This document shows, piece by piece, positions 5,912 to 58,861 of a DNA stretch of 64,000 bases. The notes under the pieces are model-generated. The model worked only from the letters and a program-made list of their open reading frames with translations, was not told the origin of the DNA and ran no database searches. Source of the DNA: Lytechinus variegatus (lineage: Eukaryota > Echinodermata > Echinoidea > Temnopleuroida > Toxopneustidae); the NCBI RefSeq assembly GCF_018143015.1, contig NC_054743.1, forward strand, positions 64,075,244-64,139,243, given 5' to 3'. The translations under genes were made by a program, and so were the position numbers. Numbering within the stretch: the first letter of the stretch is position 1; every line of letters begins with the position of its first letter.

Positions 5912-10225
<4,314 letters not shown>

Positions 10226-17776: not shown

Positions 17777-18755
17777 ATGTTGACAGCGTCTACCAATGGA
17801 ACATCGTCGCCGACTTGGTCGTGGGATGCGATTGATTGGGACGATTGGCACACACTGCTTTAGTTAGTTCCTGCATGTTTAGGATGTCTTGGTAACCTAG
17901 TGGTTATGGCTATCCTGTTTCCACGAAAGTCACAGAATAGATCTACAGATACCCTGATCGGCCATCTTGCTGTGGCCGACTTTCTAACATCAGTGTTTCT
18001 TCTGCCAATCCCTTCGGTTAGGAATGTACCTCAGAGCTGGGCTGGGTTCTTATATTGTGGCTTCATAGATACACAGAGCTGCCGTCTGGTCTGCATCTTC
18101 TCCTCGATTTACATACTCGTCGTTATCTGTTGCGATCGCTACGTTGCTGTTGTCTACCCTCTGCAGTTCAATCGTTGGCTAACGAGAGGGCGCTAGCTGC
18201 ACCTTGTCCATTGCTCTCACTTGGCTGGTATCCTCAGTAGGCCAATTCACAACGACTTTCACCAGTCTGGATATATCAAAGAGCGTTTGCAGGTTGTCGT
18301 CAGGGTATTATAGTCGGGTCATCGGTGGTTCTCTGAATTTCTTTTTTGTTTTCGCTTTACCCGCCCTGGTCATGCTCACATCACAACTAATCGTTGCCCA
18401 TAAGTTGCTCCGGAAGTCCCGACGTTTCAACTCCGCAAAGAATGGCCCATCTGATATCCCTTCCTTCCACTTGGTCGCACGACGGAAGGTGCTGAAGATG
18501 ACGGCCATCGTAGTCGCCATATTTGTGACCACCGTTGGCCCCAACCAAACAAGTTACTTCTGCTACAACGTCGGGATTGTGCCTCGGGAATACCTATCGG
18601 GAGAGTTTCATCGCTTCACGTTTCTTCTCGCTTGCTACAACTCGTGTGCCAACCCATTTATATACGCCTCACAGAACAAGAAGTTCAGGGAAGCATTTTT
18701 GAACATGTGGACGATATGGAAATGGCCCCAGTCTCGTGACCTTCCTATATTTTAA
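17777..18755 (+). pseudogene. Intronless rhodopsin-class (class A) GPCR, broken
   Basis: A seven-helix receptor on one exon. From ATG 17777 the frame reads an N-terminus with one glycosylation site (NGT), then meets TAG at 17861-17863 as helix 1 begins. It continues in frame through the helix 1 motif GNLVV, helix 2 LAVADF and the helix 3 end CDRYVAVVYPL, and stops at TAG 18194-18196 in intracellular loop 2. The rest (helices 4-7) runs one base out of frame to TAA 18753-18755, with helix 6 (TAIVVAIFVTTVGPNQ, lacking the usual CWxP) and helix 7 NPFIYA. So there is one nonsense codon and one frameshift in about 325 codons, while all helices are otherwise preserved. That means recent loss, or two sequence errors. 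Large families of single-exon rhodopsin-class receptors are known in sea urchins. The ligand is unknown. Confidence 0.85.
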
Positions 18756-25464: not shown

Positions 25465-35322
<9,858 letters not shown>

Positions 35323-51600: not shown

Positions 51601-54600
51601 TTACTCACGTTACATTTGGAGACACCTTGACTCATACTTGGAGCTGTAACTCCATTAATATTGATAGGAACTAAACATCTCCTTATCACAGCAAAGTACA
51701 CAGTCTGAATATCCTTTGTATAAAAACAAAACTTGGGAAATTTTATTATGCTCCTGGCAAATCTTTGGAATGTGTCGGTTACTCACGTTACATGATTTGG
51801 ACATGCATAAAATTAAAAGTCGACATAATTGAAAAGTCTCATCATACAAGGCTTTTATGAAAGTTGATTATATCCATTTCAAAGAAGTATATTAGGGAGA
51901 CAAACTGTATAAAAAAATAAAGAACACATGGTTTTTACTTGGGATGCAGATAATATGGTTACTCACGTTACGGTTACTCACGTTACATTTTGTCCATGTA
52001 TGGTTAACAACACACATGTCATTAAAGATTTAATAATGTGTGTAAAATTCATTGCTAGGAACATCAAAAAGAGATTTTATACCAAAAATTTGAACAATTG
52101 GAGCTTTATTGGGGAGTAAGAGGGAAAAGTATGATTTCGCTTACTAATTATGCATACATATAAATTAGCATAATCGCTTAATACCAATTTGCATGAAAAA
52201 AAATTACTGTATAGAATTGTAGATTATGTCCAAGACAACCTGCGCGCAAATTTTTGGCGTGATCATGCTGCTAATGGCCACCCCCCCCCCCCCCCCCGGG
52301 CCATATCAACTCCCAACATACCCTGGCCGTGATAGGGTTACAGGTTAGAGCATTCAATGTGTTGTTCGAACACTCTTTAAAGTTTGGTTAATTGAAACCA
52401 AGTCTTACTAATGCACTCTCGCATTGTGAATACTTCTACTAATATTCAATTTTTTTGTGTGATTGTATGACCACTGATATTTTGATGAACAAAGAGTCAT
52501 ATCAAAGAGGTGTACCCTCATTTTGCTTTTAATTAATCAAAAATAACTTCACAACTCACCATGAGACTTAAAACTTGACATCCCACAGAAAATGTTACCT
52601 AACTGAATAATCTTTACTGGTTACTCACATTACATGATGGTTACGTTACAAAGTTACTCACGTTACAGTTTTCTTCATCATTTTTATAAAAATTGTACTT
52701 TTTAATGATTTTGATAGTCATCACTGTGTCAAAGATTGTTTGAAGGAAGAGAATGTAAAATCCCACCAATTAGTTGTGTAGAATTTTTCTCTCAGAAATC
52801 AAAGTCAGTTTTTTGTCTCACCTGCGAAGCAGAGTGAGACTATAGGCGCCGCTTTTCCGACGGCGGCGGCGGCGGCGTCAACATCAAATCTTAACCTGAG
52901 GTTAAGTTTTTGAAATGACGTCATAACCTAGAAAGTATATGGACCTAGTTAATAAAACTTGGCCATAAGGTTAATCAAGTATTACTGAGCATCCTATTAG
53001 AGTTTCATGTCACATGACCAAGGTCAAAGGTCATTTAGGGTCAATGAACTTAGACCATGTTGGAGGGATCAACATCGAAATCTTTACCTGAGGTTAAGTT
53101 TTTGAAATGTCATCATAACTTAGAAAATATATGGACCTAGTTCATGAAACTTGGACATAAGGTTAATCAAGTATCACTGAACATCCTGCACGAGTTTCAC
53201 GTCACATGATTAAGGTCAAAGGTCATTTAGGGTCAATGAACTTTGGCCGAATTGCCGATATCTGTTGAATTCCCATCATAACTTTGAAAGTTTATGGATC
53301 TGATTCATGAAACTTGGACATAATAGTAATCAAGCATCACTGAACATTTTGTGCAAGTTTCAGGTCTCATGATTAAGGTCAAAGGTCATTTAGGGTCAAT
53401 GAACTTTGGCCGAATTGGGGGTATCTGTTGAATTACCATCATAACTTTGAAAGTTTATTGGTCTAGTTCATTAAACTTGGATATTATAGTAATCAAGTAT
53501 CTCTGAACATCCTGTGCGCATTTCAGGTCACATGTCCAAGGTCAAAGGTCAATGAACTTTGGCCGAACTGGGTGTATCTGTTGAATTACCATCATAACTT
53601 TGAAAGTTTATGGATCTGATTCATGAAACTTGTACATAAGAGTAATCAAGTATCACTGAACATCCTGTGCGAGTTTCAGGTCACATGATCAAGGTCACAG
53701 GTCATGTAAGGTCAATGAACTTTGGCCATGTTGGGGTTTTTTGTTGAATAACCATCATATCTCTGTAAGTTTATTGGTCTAGTTCATAAAAAGTGGACAT
53801 AAGAGTAACCATGTATCACTGAACATCTTGTGCAAGTTAGAGTAGTATTCAAAGTCAGCACTGCTGCTATATTGAACCGCGTGGTGCAGGTGAGACGGCC
53901 AGAGGCATTCCACTTGTTTGGTTACTCACATTACCTCACCTGAGCAGCTTGCAATATTTATTTTTGAATGAGTACTACAAATTTACTTGAAAAGCTGTTG
54001 TGTATTTTAAGTAATTTGACTCTTCTAAACTTCAGAAATATATAAAGTGGTATGTTGTTGCAATAACAAAATGGTAATAAGGCATATTTCATTTTTCACT
54101 ATTTTTCTTGTATTTTGGTACAGAATGGAAGACACAATTTTTGACCATTTTTTCCAAAGTATACATATGAAAATAAACTTTTTATTTCTTGTTCCTGAAA
54201 CTATCATGTATAAAGGACTTAAAGTATTAAAAAATTCAAGAAAATATTGAATTTAAATTTTTAAGCTCATGTCCACCAACCTGTGGAATTACCCATCTGA
54301 AGATGCTTTTTGTCTCACCTGCGAAGCAAAGTGAGACTATAGGCGCCGCTTTTCCGACGGCGGCGGCGTCAACATCAAATCTTAACCTGAGGTTAAGTTT
54401 TTGAAATGACGTCATAACTTAGAATGTATATGGACCTAGTTAATAAAACTTGGCCATAAGGTTAATCAAGTATTACTGAACATCCTATCAGAGTTTCATG
54501 TCACATGACCAAGGTCAAAGGTCATTTAGGGTCAATGAACTTAGACCATGTTGGAGGAATCAACATCGAAATCTTAACCTGAGGTTAAGTTTTTGAAATG

Positions 54601-57600
54601 ACATCATAACTTAGAAAATATATGGACCTAGTTCATGAAACTTGGACATAAGGTTAATCAAGTATCACTGAACATCCTGCATGAGTTTCACGTCACATGA
54701 CCAAGGTCAAAGGTCATTTAGGGTCAATGAACTTTGGCCGAATTGCCGATATCTGTTGAATTCCCATCATAACTTTGAAAGTTTATGGATCTGATTCATG
54801 AAACTTGGACATAATAGTAATCATGCATCACTGAAAATTTTGTGCAAGTTTCAGGTCTCATGATTAAGGTCAAAGGTCATTTAGGGTCAATGAACTTTGG
54901 CCGAATTGGGGGTATCTGTTGAATTACCATCATAACTTTGAAAGTTTATTGGTCTAGTTCATCAAACTTGGACATTAGAGTAATCAAGTATCACTAAACA
55001 TCCTGTGCGCGTTTCAGGTCACATGACCAAGGTCAAAGGTCAATGAACTTTGGCCGAAATGGGTGTATCTGTTGAATTACCATCATAACTTTGAAAGTTT
55101 ATGGATCTGATTCATGAAACTTGTACATAAGAGTAATCAAGTATCACTGAACATCCTGTTCGAGTTTCAGGTCACATGATCAAGGTCACAGCCAGGTCAT
55201 GTAAGGTCAATGAACTTTGGCCATGTTGGGTTTTTTTGTTGAATAACCATCATATCTCTGTAAGTTTATTGGTCTACATGTAGTTCATAAAAAGTGGACA
55301 TAAGAGTAACCATGTATCACTGAACATCTTGTGCGAGTTATAGTAGTATTCAAAATCAGCACTGCTGCTATATTGAACCGCGTGATGCAGGTGAGACGGC
55401 CAGAGGCATTCCACTTGTTTTACAAGTACAGACAGTTGCAGCATTATAATGCTACATTCTGACATGCCAAGTGCATTCCTAGAATCAGTTCTTTGCATGC
55501 TTACTTGATTCCAAGGAAAGGGTAATGCCAATTGCTATTTGTATTTTTGTTAAGTCTTGCTTTCCTTATTGCATCATTGATACCAGTACCATAAACGTTA
55601 TTTTCACAGAATTATTTTTTCTCGCTTGGCGGCTCCAAAACATTTTAACTTTAATTTTCTTTAAGTCGCGCTGCCCACTCCATAATCACAGTCACTTCCT
55701 CCCCATCTGTGAATGGTTTTAATTAACATTTCAGCGGCAAAATTGTATTTTCTGATCACAATTCTAGCTCTAAAGCGACGTAATTCAGCATTGTTTTGAT
55801 CCAATCATGAGCTTTTGTGACATTTAGCGCAACTTCTCTCTGCGGGGCGGACATCGAGGAAGGCCAAATGGAGGCACTGCTGGCCTGGTATGGACGGCCG
55901 AGGACCGGGGGGGGATTACGGTTATTCAAAGTACATGGGATCAATCAACAAACCTGTGCGATCGACCCAACGTCTTCTTAAAAACGAAACAGATCTAAGC
56001 ACTCAACAATCAAACAGCAATTCATATTTCAACCAAAATCATAATTTAAATACAGATCTGCGACTGTTTAGAAAATGATTGCGTTGCTTTGGAACAAATT
56101 CTTGCGATGCATATGATTTTGGAGCTCAAGCTTGCTTGTTTTAATGTTCCCCCTCTACAGGTCAAATTATGCAATCTCTTTGCCAAAATGATACATGCAA
56201 TTGAAATGCGGTTCAAAACTTGCATTAAAAATGCTCATAAATTTGTGTGTTTTAAATTCGCGCTCGCATATCTTGCTGCGGAATCCGCGAAAATTTCAAC
56301 TTCAACAGTATGGTACAGTACTTGTTCAAAGCAATATAGCTGTTTAATAGATCCTCTGTTGCAAATATGGCCTATAATCTGGGCAGAGACTACAGCTTTT
56401 GTCTGATACTGTTCGCGTATGTGAGCAATACGTGCGCTGAGAAGACTACCCACCTGGTTGCATAGCAGCCAGTGGCTATACAGTCTGGTCTTACATTAGT
56501 ACTTTTTTATTGACTAAGATTTGCTGCAGGTTTTTTCTTTACGAAAAACTGCATTTGGATATTTGTTGATTAATTTATCTTTTATTCAAATCAGTTTGAT
56601 CAGTGCTACCTTGAAGTGTGTTTCAATATACATTTCTAAAACACCTTGTCTCTTCTGTCTTTTTTTTCTCCCCAGAAATGTGCAATATTGAGCCACAAGG
56701 TGACATATCTGGAGAACAAGCTTCAACACTCACAAGTTCAGACGAACAACTCACACCAAAAGTATCACCAGCAGGCACCTCTGCTATCGTAATGGAAGCA
56801 GCATCTAGCTCTACAAGTCATGAAGAATGCAGTGAGGAAACCAGAGAACAGTTGGACTCAGCTATTGCGATGGAAGCAGCATCTAGATCTCCAAGTCATG
56901 AAGAACTCTGTGAGGAAACCAGAGAACTGTTGCATTCTGAATTGGATGCAACTAGTTCTGACCAGGTTGAGAAAGTAACAATTACGAATAGTCATACCTC
57001 GCACTTGAGAATAAAACTCAGAGACAGATCTCCAGCTTGCCCAACAGTGGATGAGAACCTGCAGGGGAAGCCACCACCCCGTGGACGTGGACGGCCTCCT
57101 GGAAGGGGACGTTCCCCCGGTGGTGGACGTCCCCGAGGACGGCCTCCGGGAACTGGGCGTCCCAGAGGACGCCCTCGCAAGCCGGTGGAAGAAAACGAGA
57201 ACCTTCAATGTAGTGTGTGCCAGAAGGATTTTTCTAATAGACATAATCTGAGGAATCACATGAGGATTCATATCATGGATAAACCCCTGCAGTGCCCGGT
57301 GTGCGGGAAGGGTTTCTGCTTCAAGTCAGACTTTGAGCGTCATATGAGAATCCACAGCGGGGAGAAGCCGCACCGTTGTGAAGAGTGTGGGAAGGAATTT
57401 ACCCAAAGAAGCCACCTCTCGGATCATATGCGGATTCACACGGGGGTGAAGGAGCATCAGTGTCCTGTCTGCAAGCAATTCTACGCCCGGAAAACCCATC
57501 TCAAGACTCACATGCGGATCCACACTGGTGAGAAGCCTTACGCATGCACTCTCTGCGAAAAGGCGTATTCCCGAAGGAACGATCTCAAGAAGCACATGCG

Positions 57601-58861
57601 TTCCCACACGGGAGAGAAAGCCCCCCACGTGTGCTCCGTGTGTGAGAAGGGGTTCTCACACAAGAGTCATCTGGCTCACCATATGAAATGCCACACCGGA
57701 TCCGAACCGTTCCGTTGCTCCGTCTGCAACAAGGGTTTCCTCTTCAGATCTGATCTGATAAGACATGAGAGGATCCACAGCGGTGAGAAACCACACAGCT
57801 GCAAGATCTGTGGCAAAGTTTTCGGCCAGCGATGTCATTTAACTGATCATATGCGCACCCACACCGGCGAAAGACCACATAGATGCTTGTTGTGCGGTAA
57901 GGGGTTTTTCCGTAAAAATCAGCTTACGGCTCATATGAAACATCATGCGGGTGAAATGCTACCTGTAAACTGTGCTCTCTGCGGTAAGGAAGTCCCCATT
58001 GAGAATATAGAACACATACCGGAATATTGCGTTGACTGTTGTAAGAAACTCCTGTCGCAGGGCGATGCCACGCAGGGGGTCAGAGCGCAAGAAGGCCCAC
58101 TCCCATTCAACTGCCTCGAGTGTGACAAGAAGTTTTTATTGCATTCCCAACTTCTGGAACATGTGAAGTCACACACAGACATGAAGCCGTTCCACTGTCC
58201 AGACTGTGATCACCAATTTGATAAGGCATCTGATTTTATAGATCATATGGAATTGCATGACAGTGGAAAGTCTTTCCAGTGTCTAGACTGCTTTCAGAAA
58301 TTTCCTTTGCGTTCCGAACTCATGAGCCACAGGCAAACGCACAAAAAAGATAAGTCGTTCAATTGTTCTAAGTGCACGGAGAAGTTTCACACAGAGTCCG
58401 ATCTGACCACCCATGAGAAGTCGCATCGGGATGAAACGCCTTTCCCACCTACCCAATGCAACAACAAATTTGATATCGAAGCTGATCTTCGGACGCACAA
58501 CAAGTCATATCGGGAAGAAAAGCTGCTCCATTGTTCAGAGTGCAAAAAGCCATTCAAAGTAGAGTCCGATCTTCTTGTCCATGAGAAATCCCACCTCAAG
58601 GAAAATCTGTTCAGTTGCCCCGAGTGTGATACGAAGTTTCCCGTACAGGAGAACCTCATGGTTCATATGAAAATGCACAAAGGTGAAAAGCCTTTCCATT
58701 GCCTTGAGTGCAACCAGAAATTCCTCTTGCAGCGTGATCTGTTGGACCATGTGAAAACTCATCCAGGAGAAACCTCATATTATTGCTTAGAATGTGATAA
58801 AGGGTTCAGTACAGAATGGGATCTGATGAGCCATGTCAGTATACACACTGGAGAAAACTAG
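39649..58861 (+). CDS. AT-hook plus multi-C2H2 zinc-finger protein (five exons)
   Basis: Predicted exons are 39649-39664, 45777-45833, 46426-46509, 51450-51548 and 56676-58861 (TAG). All four introns are phase 1 with GT-AG ends, giving 813 residues starting MTTEQVSTASVAIEQ. The acidic Ser/Glu-rich N-terminus (1-215) holds a 25-residue tandem repeat at about 122-172 (AI.MEAAS..SHEE). Three AT-hook motifs (RGRPP, RPRGRPP, RPRGRPRKP) lie at about 221-255. Nine C2H2 fingers at about 264-509 have mostly TGEKP-like linkers. A degenerate CxxC..CxxC knuckle is at about 518-541. Nine more fingers at about 565-809 have non-standard linkers, and one of them (about 680-697) has lost its first Cys and last His. 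It is probably a nuclear DNA-binding regulator; its targets are unknown. Exon 5 is certain, exons 2-4 likely, exon 1 least sure. The gene spans 19 kb, mostly repeats. Confidence 0.8.
39690..41110. mobile_element. Inverted-repeat element with 60-base hairpins in zinc-finger intron 1
   Basis: The hairpin-forming motif (GGCGTT..GGGGAGTGAAAG..ATATACTGTACGTA..TCACTCCCC..AACGCC) occurs at 39707-39768 and 40337-40394, and inverted at 41040-41096. Next to it, 'catgcctttgcgtatcggac' and 'ggattacccatggtgaacct' at about 40280-40330 recur in complement at 40978-41035. The left end 'gccaggggcgttgtgggg' mirrors the right end. It begins about 25 bases after the exon 1 donor. Other DNA is inserted in both arms, so the limits are approximate. 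Confidence 0.6.
41645..42544. mobile_element. 900-base insertion with 9-base target duplication
   Basis: GGTAAAACC stands at 41636-41644 and again at 42545-42553. The short copy of the host element has a single GGTAAAGCC at the matching place (about 62152-62160), which is the empty site. Ends TAGAC..GTCTA match for only five bases. A 9-base duplication would fit Mutator-like elements, but the family is not recognised. No coding sequence. It contains the tandem duplication at 42298-42448. Confidence 0.7.
42298..42448. repeat. Tandem duplication, period 81
   Basis: The segment from 'aatttcgctcaaaaaacag' to 'cgctagttcactata' is repeated almost exactly, starting at about 42299 and again at about 42380. 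The two copies are joined by a short palindrome (TTCACTATACTATG..TAGTATAGTGAA). Confidence 0.85.
42788..43439 (+). other. Zinc-finger intron 1, middle part
   Basis: No repeat family recognised. A small open frame at 43288-43401 (37 residues, MVAHDFKDENLVLEP..) follows a GC-richer stretch 'tttgcgcttgcgcagtagc' that resembles a TATA-less promoter. It could be an alternative first exon or chance, and it is not called as a gene. Confidence 0.35.
43440..44225. repeat. Long polypurine (GAAA/GGAA) tract
   Basis: About 790 bases of nearly pure A and G on the plus strand with no fixed repeat unit. The 207-residue Phe/Ser-rich minus frame through it is a composition artefact. Confidence 0.9.
44226..45776 (+). 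other. Zinc-finger intron 1, 3' part
   Basis: No repeat family recognised. It ends with a T-rich acceptor (TTTTTTTTTGTCTTCTTTTACACCAG). An open frame at 45102-45299 with a GTAAGC site was considered as a first exon and set aside. Confidence 0.5.
45834..46425 (+). other. Zinc-finger intron 2
   Basis: GTAAGA donor to ATTTCAG acceptor. AT-rich, nothing else recognised. Confidence 0.7.
46872..48913. mobile_element. 2-kb foldback element with arms of about 0.9 kb
   Basis: The left arm (about 46872-47790) and right arm (about 47995-48913) are inverted copies. Paired landmarks include 'gacgtcactgtctgtacgag' against 'ctcgtacagacagtgacgtc', 'gattggctctcccacgtgaa' against its complement, 'attttatctagatttggat', 'aaccacatccaga', 'tgtcactcgttctgttagat' and 'ggaaaacgttgag'. 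The ends read TTAAAGGAGAAATATATTG and its complement. About 200 bases of spacer lie between the arms. Arms agree closely, by eye above nine bases in ten over long stretches. No coding sequence. It lies in zinc-finger intron 3. Confidence 0.85.
48914..51237 (+). other. Zinc-finger intron 3, 3' part
   Basis: Mostly unassigned. The open frame at 48994-49203 has no supporting splice pair that keeps the exon phases. G-runs lie near 49177 and 49803. Confidence 0.45.
49676..49728 (-). repeat. tRNA-like SINE fragment (minus strand)
   Basis: The minus strand reads 'atgaaccaaagatcgtggg' then GGTTCGAGTCTAACC, a B box with the flanking anticodon side. The 5' half is poorly preserved. Confidence 0.4.
51238..51365. 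repeat. Polypyrimidine tract
   Basis: About 130 bases of C and T on the plus strand, ending about 85 bases before zinc-finger exon 4. Confidence 0.8.
51599..52667. repeat. Dispersed GGTTACTCACGTTACA motif cluster
   Basis: GGTTACTCACGTTACA or a near-identical form occurs at 51599, 51777, 51957, 51972, 52619 (CAT for CGT) and 52652, with a partial form at 52639 and a further copy at 53920. Sequence between copies is unrelated by eye. All are on the plus strand, in zinc-finger intron 4. Confidence 0.7.
52279..52298. repeat. Poly(C) tract
   Basis: An uninterrupted run of C of about 20 bases. Confidence 0.85.
52813..53919. mobile_element. 1.1-kb repeat with five nuclear-receptor-type units, copy 1
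   Basis: Begins TGTCTCACCTGCGAAGC and ends 'gcaggtgagacggccagagg' with 'cattccacttgttt', so GTCTCACCTGC is inverted near the two ends. A GGC triplet run is near 52860. The interior is five units 153-192 bases apart, each with 'gtttcaggtcacatga', AGGTCAaAGGTCA and 'tcaatgaactttggcc'. These direct repeats start at 53021, 53213, 53376, 53539 and 53692 (the last with c as spacer). No coding sequence. Confidence 0.85.
53920..54310 (+). other. Spacer between the two 1.1-kb repeats
   Basis: AT-rich. It starts with a GGTTACTCACATTAC motif. Nothing else recognised. Confidence 0.6.
54311..55420. mobile_element. 1.1-kb repeat with five nuclear-receptor-type units, copy 2
   Basis: Same element and orientation as 52813-53919, and very similar throughout. 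The first GGC run is shorter (three against six triplets). AGGTCAaAGGTCA is at 54512, 54704, 54867 and 55030. In unit 5 a four-base insertion changed the spacer to five (AGGTCAcagccAGGTCA, 55183-55199). Confidence 0.85.
55421..56675 (+). other. Zinc-finger intron 4, 3' part
   Basis: No repeat family recognised. The stretch 55790-55930 is GC-richer than its surroundings, without a clear exon. It ends with TTTTTTTTCTCCCCAG before exon 5. Confidence 0.5.

Follow-up and report, generated by a model that had tools for sequence, protein, structure and literature searches.

Arrays of nuclear-receptor-type half-sites in an apparently HINE-like element of the sea urchin Lytechinus variegatus

Introduction

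Non-autonomous elements of the HINE type, which derive from the rolling-circle Helentrons, have been described in bivalves, flies and mites. In Cg_HINE of the Pacific oyster, which has been related to the bivalve elements Pearl, DTC84 and MgE, a subterminal inverted repeat (subTIR) of 11-12 bases in the left flank is followed, after 1-12 bases, by a complementary arm of 7-12 bases and then by a microsatellite (PMC7492417). The remainder of the oyster element is made up of a central array, mostly with up to five monomers of predominantly 140-180 bp, and a 3' subTIR, downstream of which lies a palindrome; the insertion sites are T-rich (PMC7492417). In mite HINEs, the distance between the 3' repeat and the 3' end is about 38-60 bp, and DINE-1-like elements of Drosophila miranda supply binding sites for the male-specific-lethal (MSL) complex (PMC4067079). 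Repeats of another class carry sites for nuclear receptors: Alu repeats contain DR2 sites, i.e., direct repeats of the half-site with a two-base spacer (PMC1785376), as well as HNF4alpha sites (PMC3252374).

Here, we describe two copies of a repeated element, apparently HINE-like, which bear arrays of nuclear-receptor-type half-sites. They are located in a stretch of 64,000 nucleotides from the sea urchin Lytechinus variegatus (assembly GCF_018143015.1, contig NC_054743.1, positions 64,075,244 to 64,139,243 of the forward strand), which is referred to as the window; all coordinates count from its first base, and all features of the element are given on the forward strand. A preliminary description of the window had drawn attention to these arrays, and its claims are taken up below together with the results that bear on them.

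Two copies of one element and the history of their arrays

A BLAST comparison within the 64-kb window revealed two copies in direct orientation, copy 1 at 52813-53919 and copy 2 at 54310-55420, which are 96% identical to each other across about 1.1 kb. This bears out the preliminary description, which had reported two direct repeats of this size and had placed the half-site arrays within them; it had not assigned the element to a kind. According to the best reading, which we consider probable, these are two insertions of one HINE-like (Helentron-derived, rolling-circle) element, whose monomer holds a block of about 30 bases with half-sites in three layouts: direct repeats with spacers of one base (DR1) and four bases (DR4) and an inverted repeat with a spacer of one base (IR1).

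Tandem Repeats Finder and the alignment of units define a central array of five full units in each copy, at 52921-53754 in copy 1 (units of 192, 163, 163, 153 and 163 bases) and at 54412-55249 in copy 2 (192, 163, 163, 153 and 167 bases). The five units per copy reported before correspond to these full units; a degenerate sixth unit, which lacks the motif block and reaches the 3' end of the element (53755-53919 in copy 1, 55250-55420 in copy 2), had been overlooked. The distances from one DR1 to the next in copy 1 (192, 163, 163 and 153 bases) agree with the spacing of 150-190 bases given earlier; however, the accompanying explanation by nucleosome spacing is needless, since oyster HINE monomers are predominantly of 140-180 bp (PMC7492417). 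Tandem Repeats Finder also called a period of 316 bases in copy 1, and growth of the array by dimers would be in keeping with it.

Over the first 100 bases, units in equivalent positions of the two copies show 93-99% identity, compared with 70-92% between different units. Since each unit is closest to its counterpart in the other copy, the array arose in an ancestral element ahead of both insertions. A same-strand comparison of the flanks of the two copies gave no match over 15 bases at E values up to 1, and the copies therefore look like two separate insertions rather than one duplicated segment.

The half-site block

The DR1 motif AGGTCA-n1-AGGTCA occurs exactly nine times in the window, and every occurrence falls within the two copies, in nine of the ten full units, as had been claimed. 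Even with one mismatch allowed, shuffled sequences contained a mean of 0.28 such motifs, and nine were reached in none of 100 shuffles. The half-sites GGGTCA and inverted TGAACT, which the preliminary description had seen in several units, are present, but they form more regular layouts than it had recognized. GGGTCA lies four bases downstream of the preceding AGGTCA and constitutes a DR4-type pair with it, which is found in eight of the ten full units, unit 5 of copy 2 among them. The inverted TGAACT forms an IR1 (RGKTCA-n-TGAMCY), which is perfect in all ten full units and is the most constant of the nuclear-receptor-type layouts; no exact IR1 is found elsewhere in the window, with 0.08 expected. 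In addition, units 4 and 5 contain DR8 pairs (spacer of eight bases), four over both copies, each of which involves an AGGTCA further upstream.

The composite block of DR1, DR4 and IR1 occupies 53021-53050 in unit 1 of copy 1, and the same layout starts at 53213, 53376, 54512, 54704 and 54867. The block of unit 4 (53539-53558 in copy 1, 55030-55049 in copy 2) comprises DR1 and IR1 without DR4 and is ten bases shorter. In unit 5 of copy 1 (53692-53721), a DR1 with the spacer C is combined with a DR4 at 53699/53709 and an IR1, and in unit 5 of copy 2 (55183-55216), an insertion of four bases turns the DR1 into a DR5 (55183/55194), which is followed by DR4 and IR1; both the DR4 of the former and the DR5 of the latter had been read correctly before. 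The total had been put at about 30 half-sites, which is too low: the two copies contain 50 half-sites of the forms RGKTCA/TGAMCY (25 each, about 22.5 per kb), and the whole window, with the copies counted in, contains 147 (2.3 per kb). Of the exact AGGTCA words in the window, 26 of 45 fall in the two copies.

Conservation of the half-sites

On the small sample provided by two copies, the half-site block has changed less than the remaining unit. When the ten full units are aligned, 23 of 24 half-site columns are invariant, whereas outside the block this holds for 75 of 133 columns (Fisher p = 7e-5). The motif block ties for first among 134 windows of 30 columns, and when the set of half-site columns is rotated through the unit, 2 of 163 circular shifts, the true position counted, score at least as high as the true position. 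A comparison of the copies with each other gives the same picture: 0 of 138 half-site bases differ, compared with 22 of 696 other bases (p = 0.018; half-sites were taken from either copy, and indels, sixth units and element ends were left out). The preliminary description had proposed to compare the decay of half-sites with that of their neighbors, and within the window the half-sites are indeed the better kept.

Several points weigh against reading this pattern as the preservation of a functional block. The sample, two copies with five full units apiece, amounts to five kinds of unit, which go back to one ancestral array. The columns are not independent of one another, and the block came to notice as a sequence common to the units. 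One neighboring circular shift outscores the true position of the half-sites. The layout has also been altered or lost: the only indel between the copies that lies within the block, the four-base insertion in unit 5 of copy 2, destroys a DR1, the block is shortened by ten bases in unit 4 of both copies, and it is absent from the sixth unit. It is an even question whether the half-site block is merely the element's own sequence, without any receptor-related role, its apparent conservation arising from the small number of units and from attention bias towards a motif chosen after being seen; the less biased tests give p values of only 0.01-0.02. However, the substitutions between the copies, which represent a separate set of changes, avoid the half-sites as well, and the IR1 is intact in all ten full units. 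In view of the dependence among columns and of the choice of a block already seen to be shared, the conservation of the half-sites is regarded as a lead and not as proof of selection, and selection on the block, be it in active elements or in the host, appears possible but doubtful.

Candidate receptor binding

In units 1-4 of each copy, and hence in eight of the ten full units, the DR1 reads exactly AGGTCAaAGGTCA. This sequence is the DR1 consensus in a binding array for HNF4alpha, in which the core CAAAG mattered more than the half-sites (PMC3252374). Given this identity with the HNF4alpha consensus, HNF4, RXR or COUP-type receptors would probably bind the block in vitro. IR1 sites of the type AGGTCA-N-TGACCT are also used by the receptor EcR. 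The same arrangement is a high-affinity site for FXR-RXR (PMC8874704), and type II receptors bind direct repeats promiscuously in binding arrays (PMC6555819). That receptors would also bind in vivo and affect the zinc-finger gene next to the copies is much less likely, and we consider it very improbable.

The element could be able to spread candidate receptor sites. If receptors bind, a single insertion would supply some five composite sites together, and the case of D. miranda, in which a Helentron-type element serves a host DNA-binding complex, would extend to hormone-type receptors. Binding would also open a simple way to test whether satellite monomers persist within mobile elements on account of the protein-binding sites they contain. 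In the absence of binding, the case would still illustrate how a regulatory array can be mimicked by an ordinary HINE-like monomer. The most far-reaching proposal is a Helentron-derived family whose monomer works as a DR1-DR4-IR1 receptor element, whose block selection maintains in active copies, and which, with about five response elements per insertion, rewires genes controlled by RXR, HNF4 or FXR/EcR-type receptors; this proposal is considered quite unlikely.

Structure of the element and class of the carrier

Both copies open with GTCTCACCTGC, immediately 3' of a run of T, and the perfect complement of GTCTCACCTGC is located 20 bases ahead of a second T-run. These subTIRs are 11 bases long and perfect in two of two copies, at 52815-52825 and 53886-53896 in copy 1 and at 54312-54322 and 55387-55397 in copy 2. 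In copy 1, the 5' subTIR and a complementary arm form a hairpin (52815-52840) with a predicted energy of -9.6 kcal/mol (z = -3.95, calculated for copy 1 only). The left flank further contains a CGG run, which differs in length by six bases between the copies. Most structural marks of a HINE are present, namely the 11-base subTIRs, the 5' hairpin arm (in copy 1), the CGG run and a central array of units of about 160 bases, and by its structure alone the element is apparently HINE-like. Mobilization of such an element in trans would fall to a Helentron Rep/helicase recognizing its ends (no such partner was seen, and none was searched for). The half-site block was inherited along with the monomer.

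Other results count against this assignment. A 3' palindrome is unsupported, as the fold is weak (-3.9 kcal/mol) and is equaled by 80 and 57 of 200 shuffles, and the distance of 20 bases from the 3' repeat to the T-run is shorter than in mite HINEs (PMC4067079); the name HINE-like was chosen because of these two features. The hairpin arm of copy 2 carries one substitution compared with copy 1. BLAST matches at E values up to 1e-3 are confined to the two copies, with no third copy in the 64-kb window, and one pattern scan of genome contigs returned two loci but no further copy of the element; these searches did not extend to the rest of the source genome. The carrier could instead be another non-autonomous DNA element, e.g., a foldback element similar to a miniature inverted-repeat transposable element (MITE) with a comparable hairpin and internal tandem repeats. 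The unsupported palindrome and the short 3' distance would fit such an element, and since each copy has T-runs on either side, these could mask a short T-rich target-site duplication, which would be indistinguishable from them. However, the inverted repeats are not both terminal, the 3' one lying 20 bases inside, and the succession of subTIR, complementary arm, microsatellite, array and subTIR is the order of a HINE (PMC7492417), which makes a MITE-like carrier unlikely.

Further searches with the HINE-like element gave no additional copies. In pattern scans of viral contigs, five of six patterns were without a locus and one had four loci, none of them a further copy. The six loci from all pattern scans were dropped as chance matches; they match over only 18-22 bases at and next to the pattern. 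Neither a blastn search of plasmids and phages with copy 1 nor a search of 52000-56500 against Rfam produced a match, and six strings from the element were found in none of the open-licence papers searched. A coding origin of the repeat was also considered but was rejected, since the copies overlap no stop-to-stop frame of at least 90 amino acids (only frames of that length were considered).

Two further words were observed at or near the copies. The palindrome CTTAACCTGAGGTTAAG is present at the heads of both copies (52890-52906 and 54381-54397) and occurs in copy 2 a second time between units 1 and 2 (54573-54589). The word GGTTACTCAC[G/A]TTAC is found at 51957-51986, 52619-52633 and 53920-53934, the last of which adjoins the right end of copy 1; these recurrences perhaps belong to an older repeat.

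Genomic setting

The two copies are located about 1.2 kb upstream of a long and uninterrupted C2H2 zinc-finger reading frame (56615-58858), which contains ten zf-H2C2_2 stretches. Directly ahead of the zinc-finger ATG, a polypyrimidine tract followed by AG (at about 56660-56675) resembles a splice acceptor, and the copies may therefore lie within an intron of the 5' untranslated region of this gene. The preliminary description had placed the arrays in an intron, which is plausible in view of the acceptor-like site, but an upstream exon was not identified. Co-option of the copies by the host as a receptor-controlled enhancer of this zinc-finger gene, for which their position, the acceptor-like site and their 50 half-sites might speak, is extremely unlikely, as the copies resemble ordinary insertions and no upstream exon was identified.

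Elsewhere in the window, three tubulin-like genes are found in the same orientation (1004-2209, 8037-10222 and 32907-35319; Pfam Tubulin), the second of which matches the alpha-tubulin chains of many animals about equally well. The coding sequence of the third changes its reading frame between about 34744 and 34876. A rhodopsin-type receptor gene (7tm_1, 17864-18752) is split into halves in overlapping frames (17864-18193 and 18183-18752), which could reflect a frameshift, a sequencing error or a pseudogene. Another tandem array is located at 30681-31234; it has periods of 107-132 bases and contains words of the CACTGTG type.

Comparison with known systems

The HINE-like element of L. variegatus resembles Cg_HINE in its subTIRs (11-12 bases in the oyster), in the arm and the microsatellite of the left flank, in a central array (in the oyster mostly of up to five monomers of 140-180 bp) and perhaps in T-rich insertion sites, whereas the 3' palindrome reported for the oyster element is unsupported in the sea urchin (PMC7492417). 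The likeness is one of structure, and the available descriptions of Cg_HINE mention no receptor-type motif (PMC7492417). With DINE-1 and the HINEs of Drosophila and mite, the element shares subTIRs and central repeats (PMC4067079). The D. miranda case is similar in that a Helentron-type element bears sites, here candidate sites, for a host DNA-binding complex; however, the complex bound in D. miranda is the MSL complex, whereas the motif in the sea urchin is a candidate nuclear-receptor-type motif read from sequence (PMC4067079).

Like the high-copy Alu repeats, the element is a repeat that carries pairs of nuclear-receptor half-sites (PMC1785376, PMC3252374). Alu is a retroposon with mostly one to three sites per copy, the binding of which was detected by chromatin immunoprecipitation (PMC1785376, PMC3252374). 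In contrast, the element described here is HINE-like, is known from sequence alone and comprises nine or ten units with composite sites in two copies. A DR1-DR4-IR1 block inside a HINE-type monomer was not found in the open-licence literature among the matches listed. Thus, receptor sites borne by repeats and binding sites borne by HINEs are already known, and it is the DR1-DR4-IR1 block in a HINE-type monomer that appears to be new.

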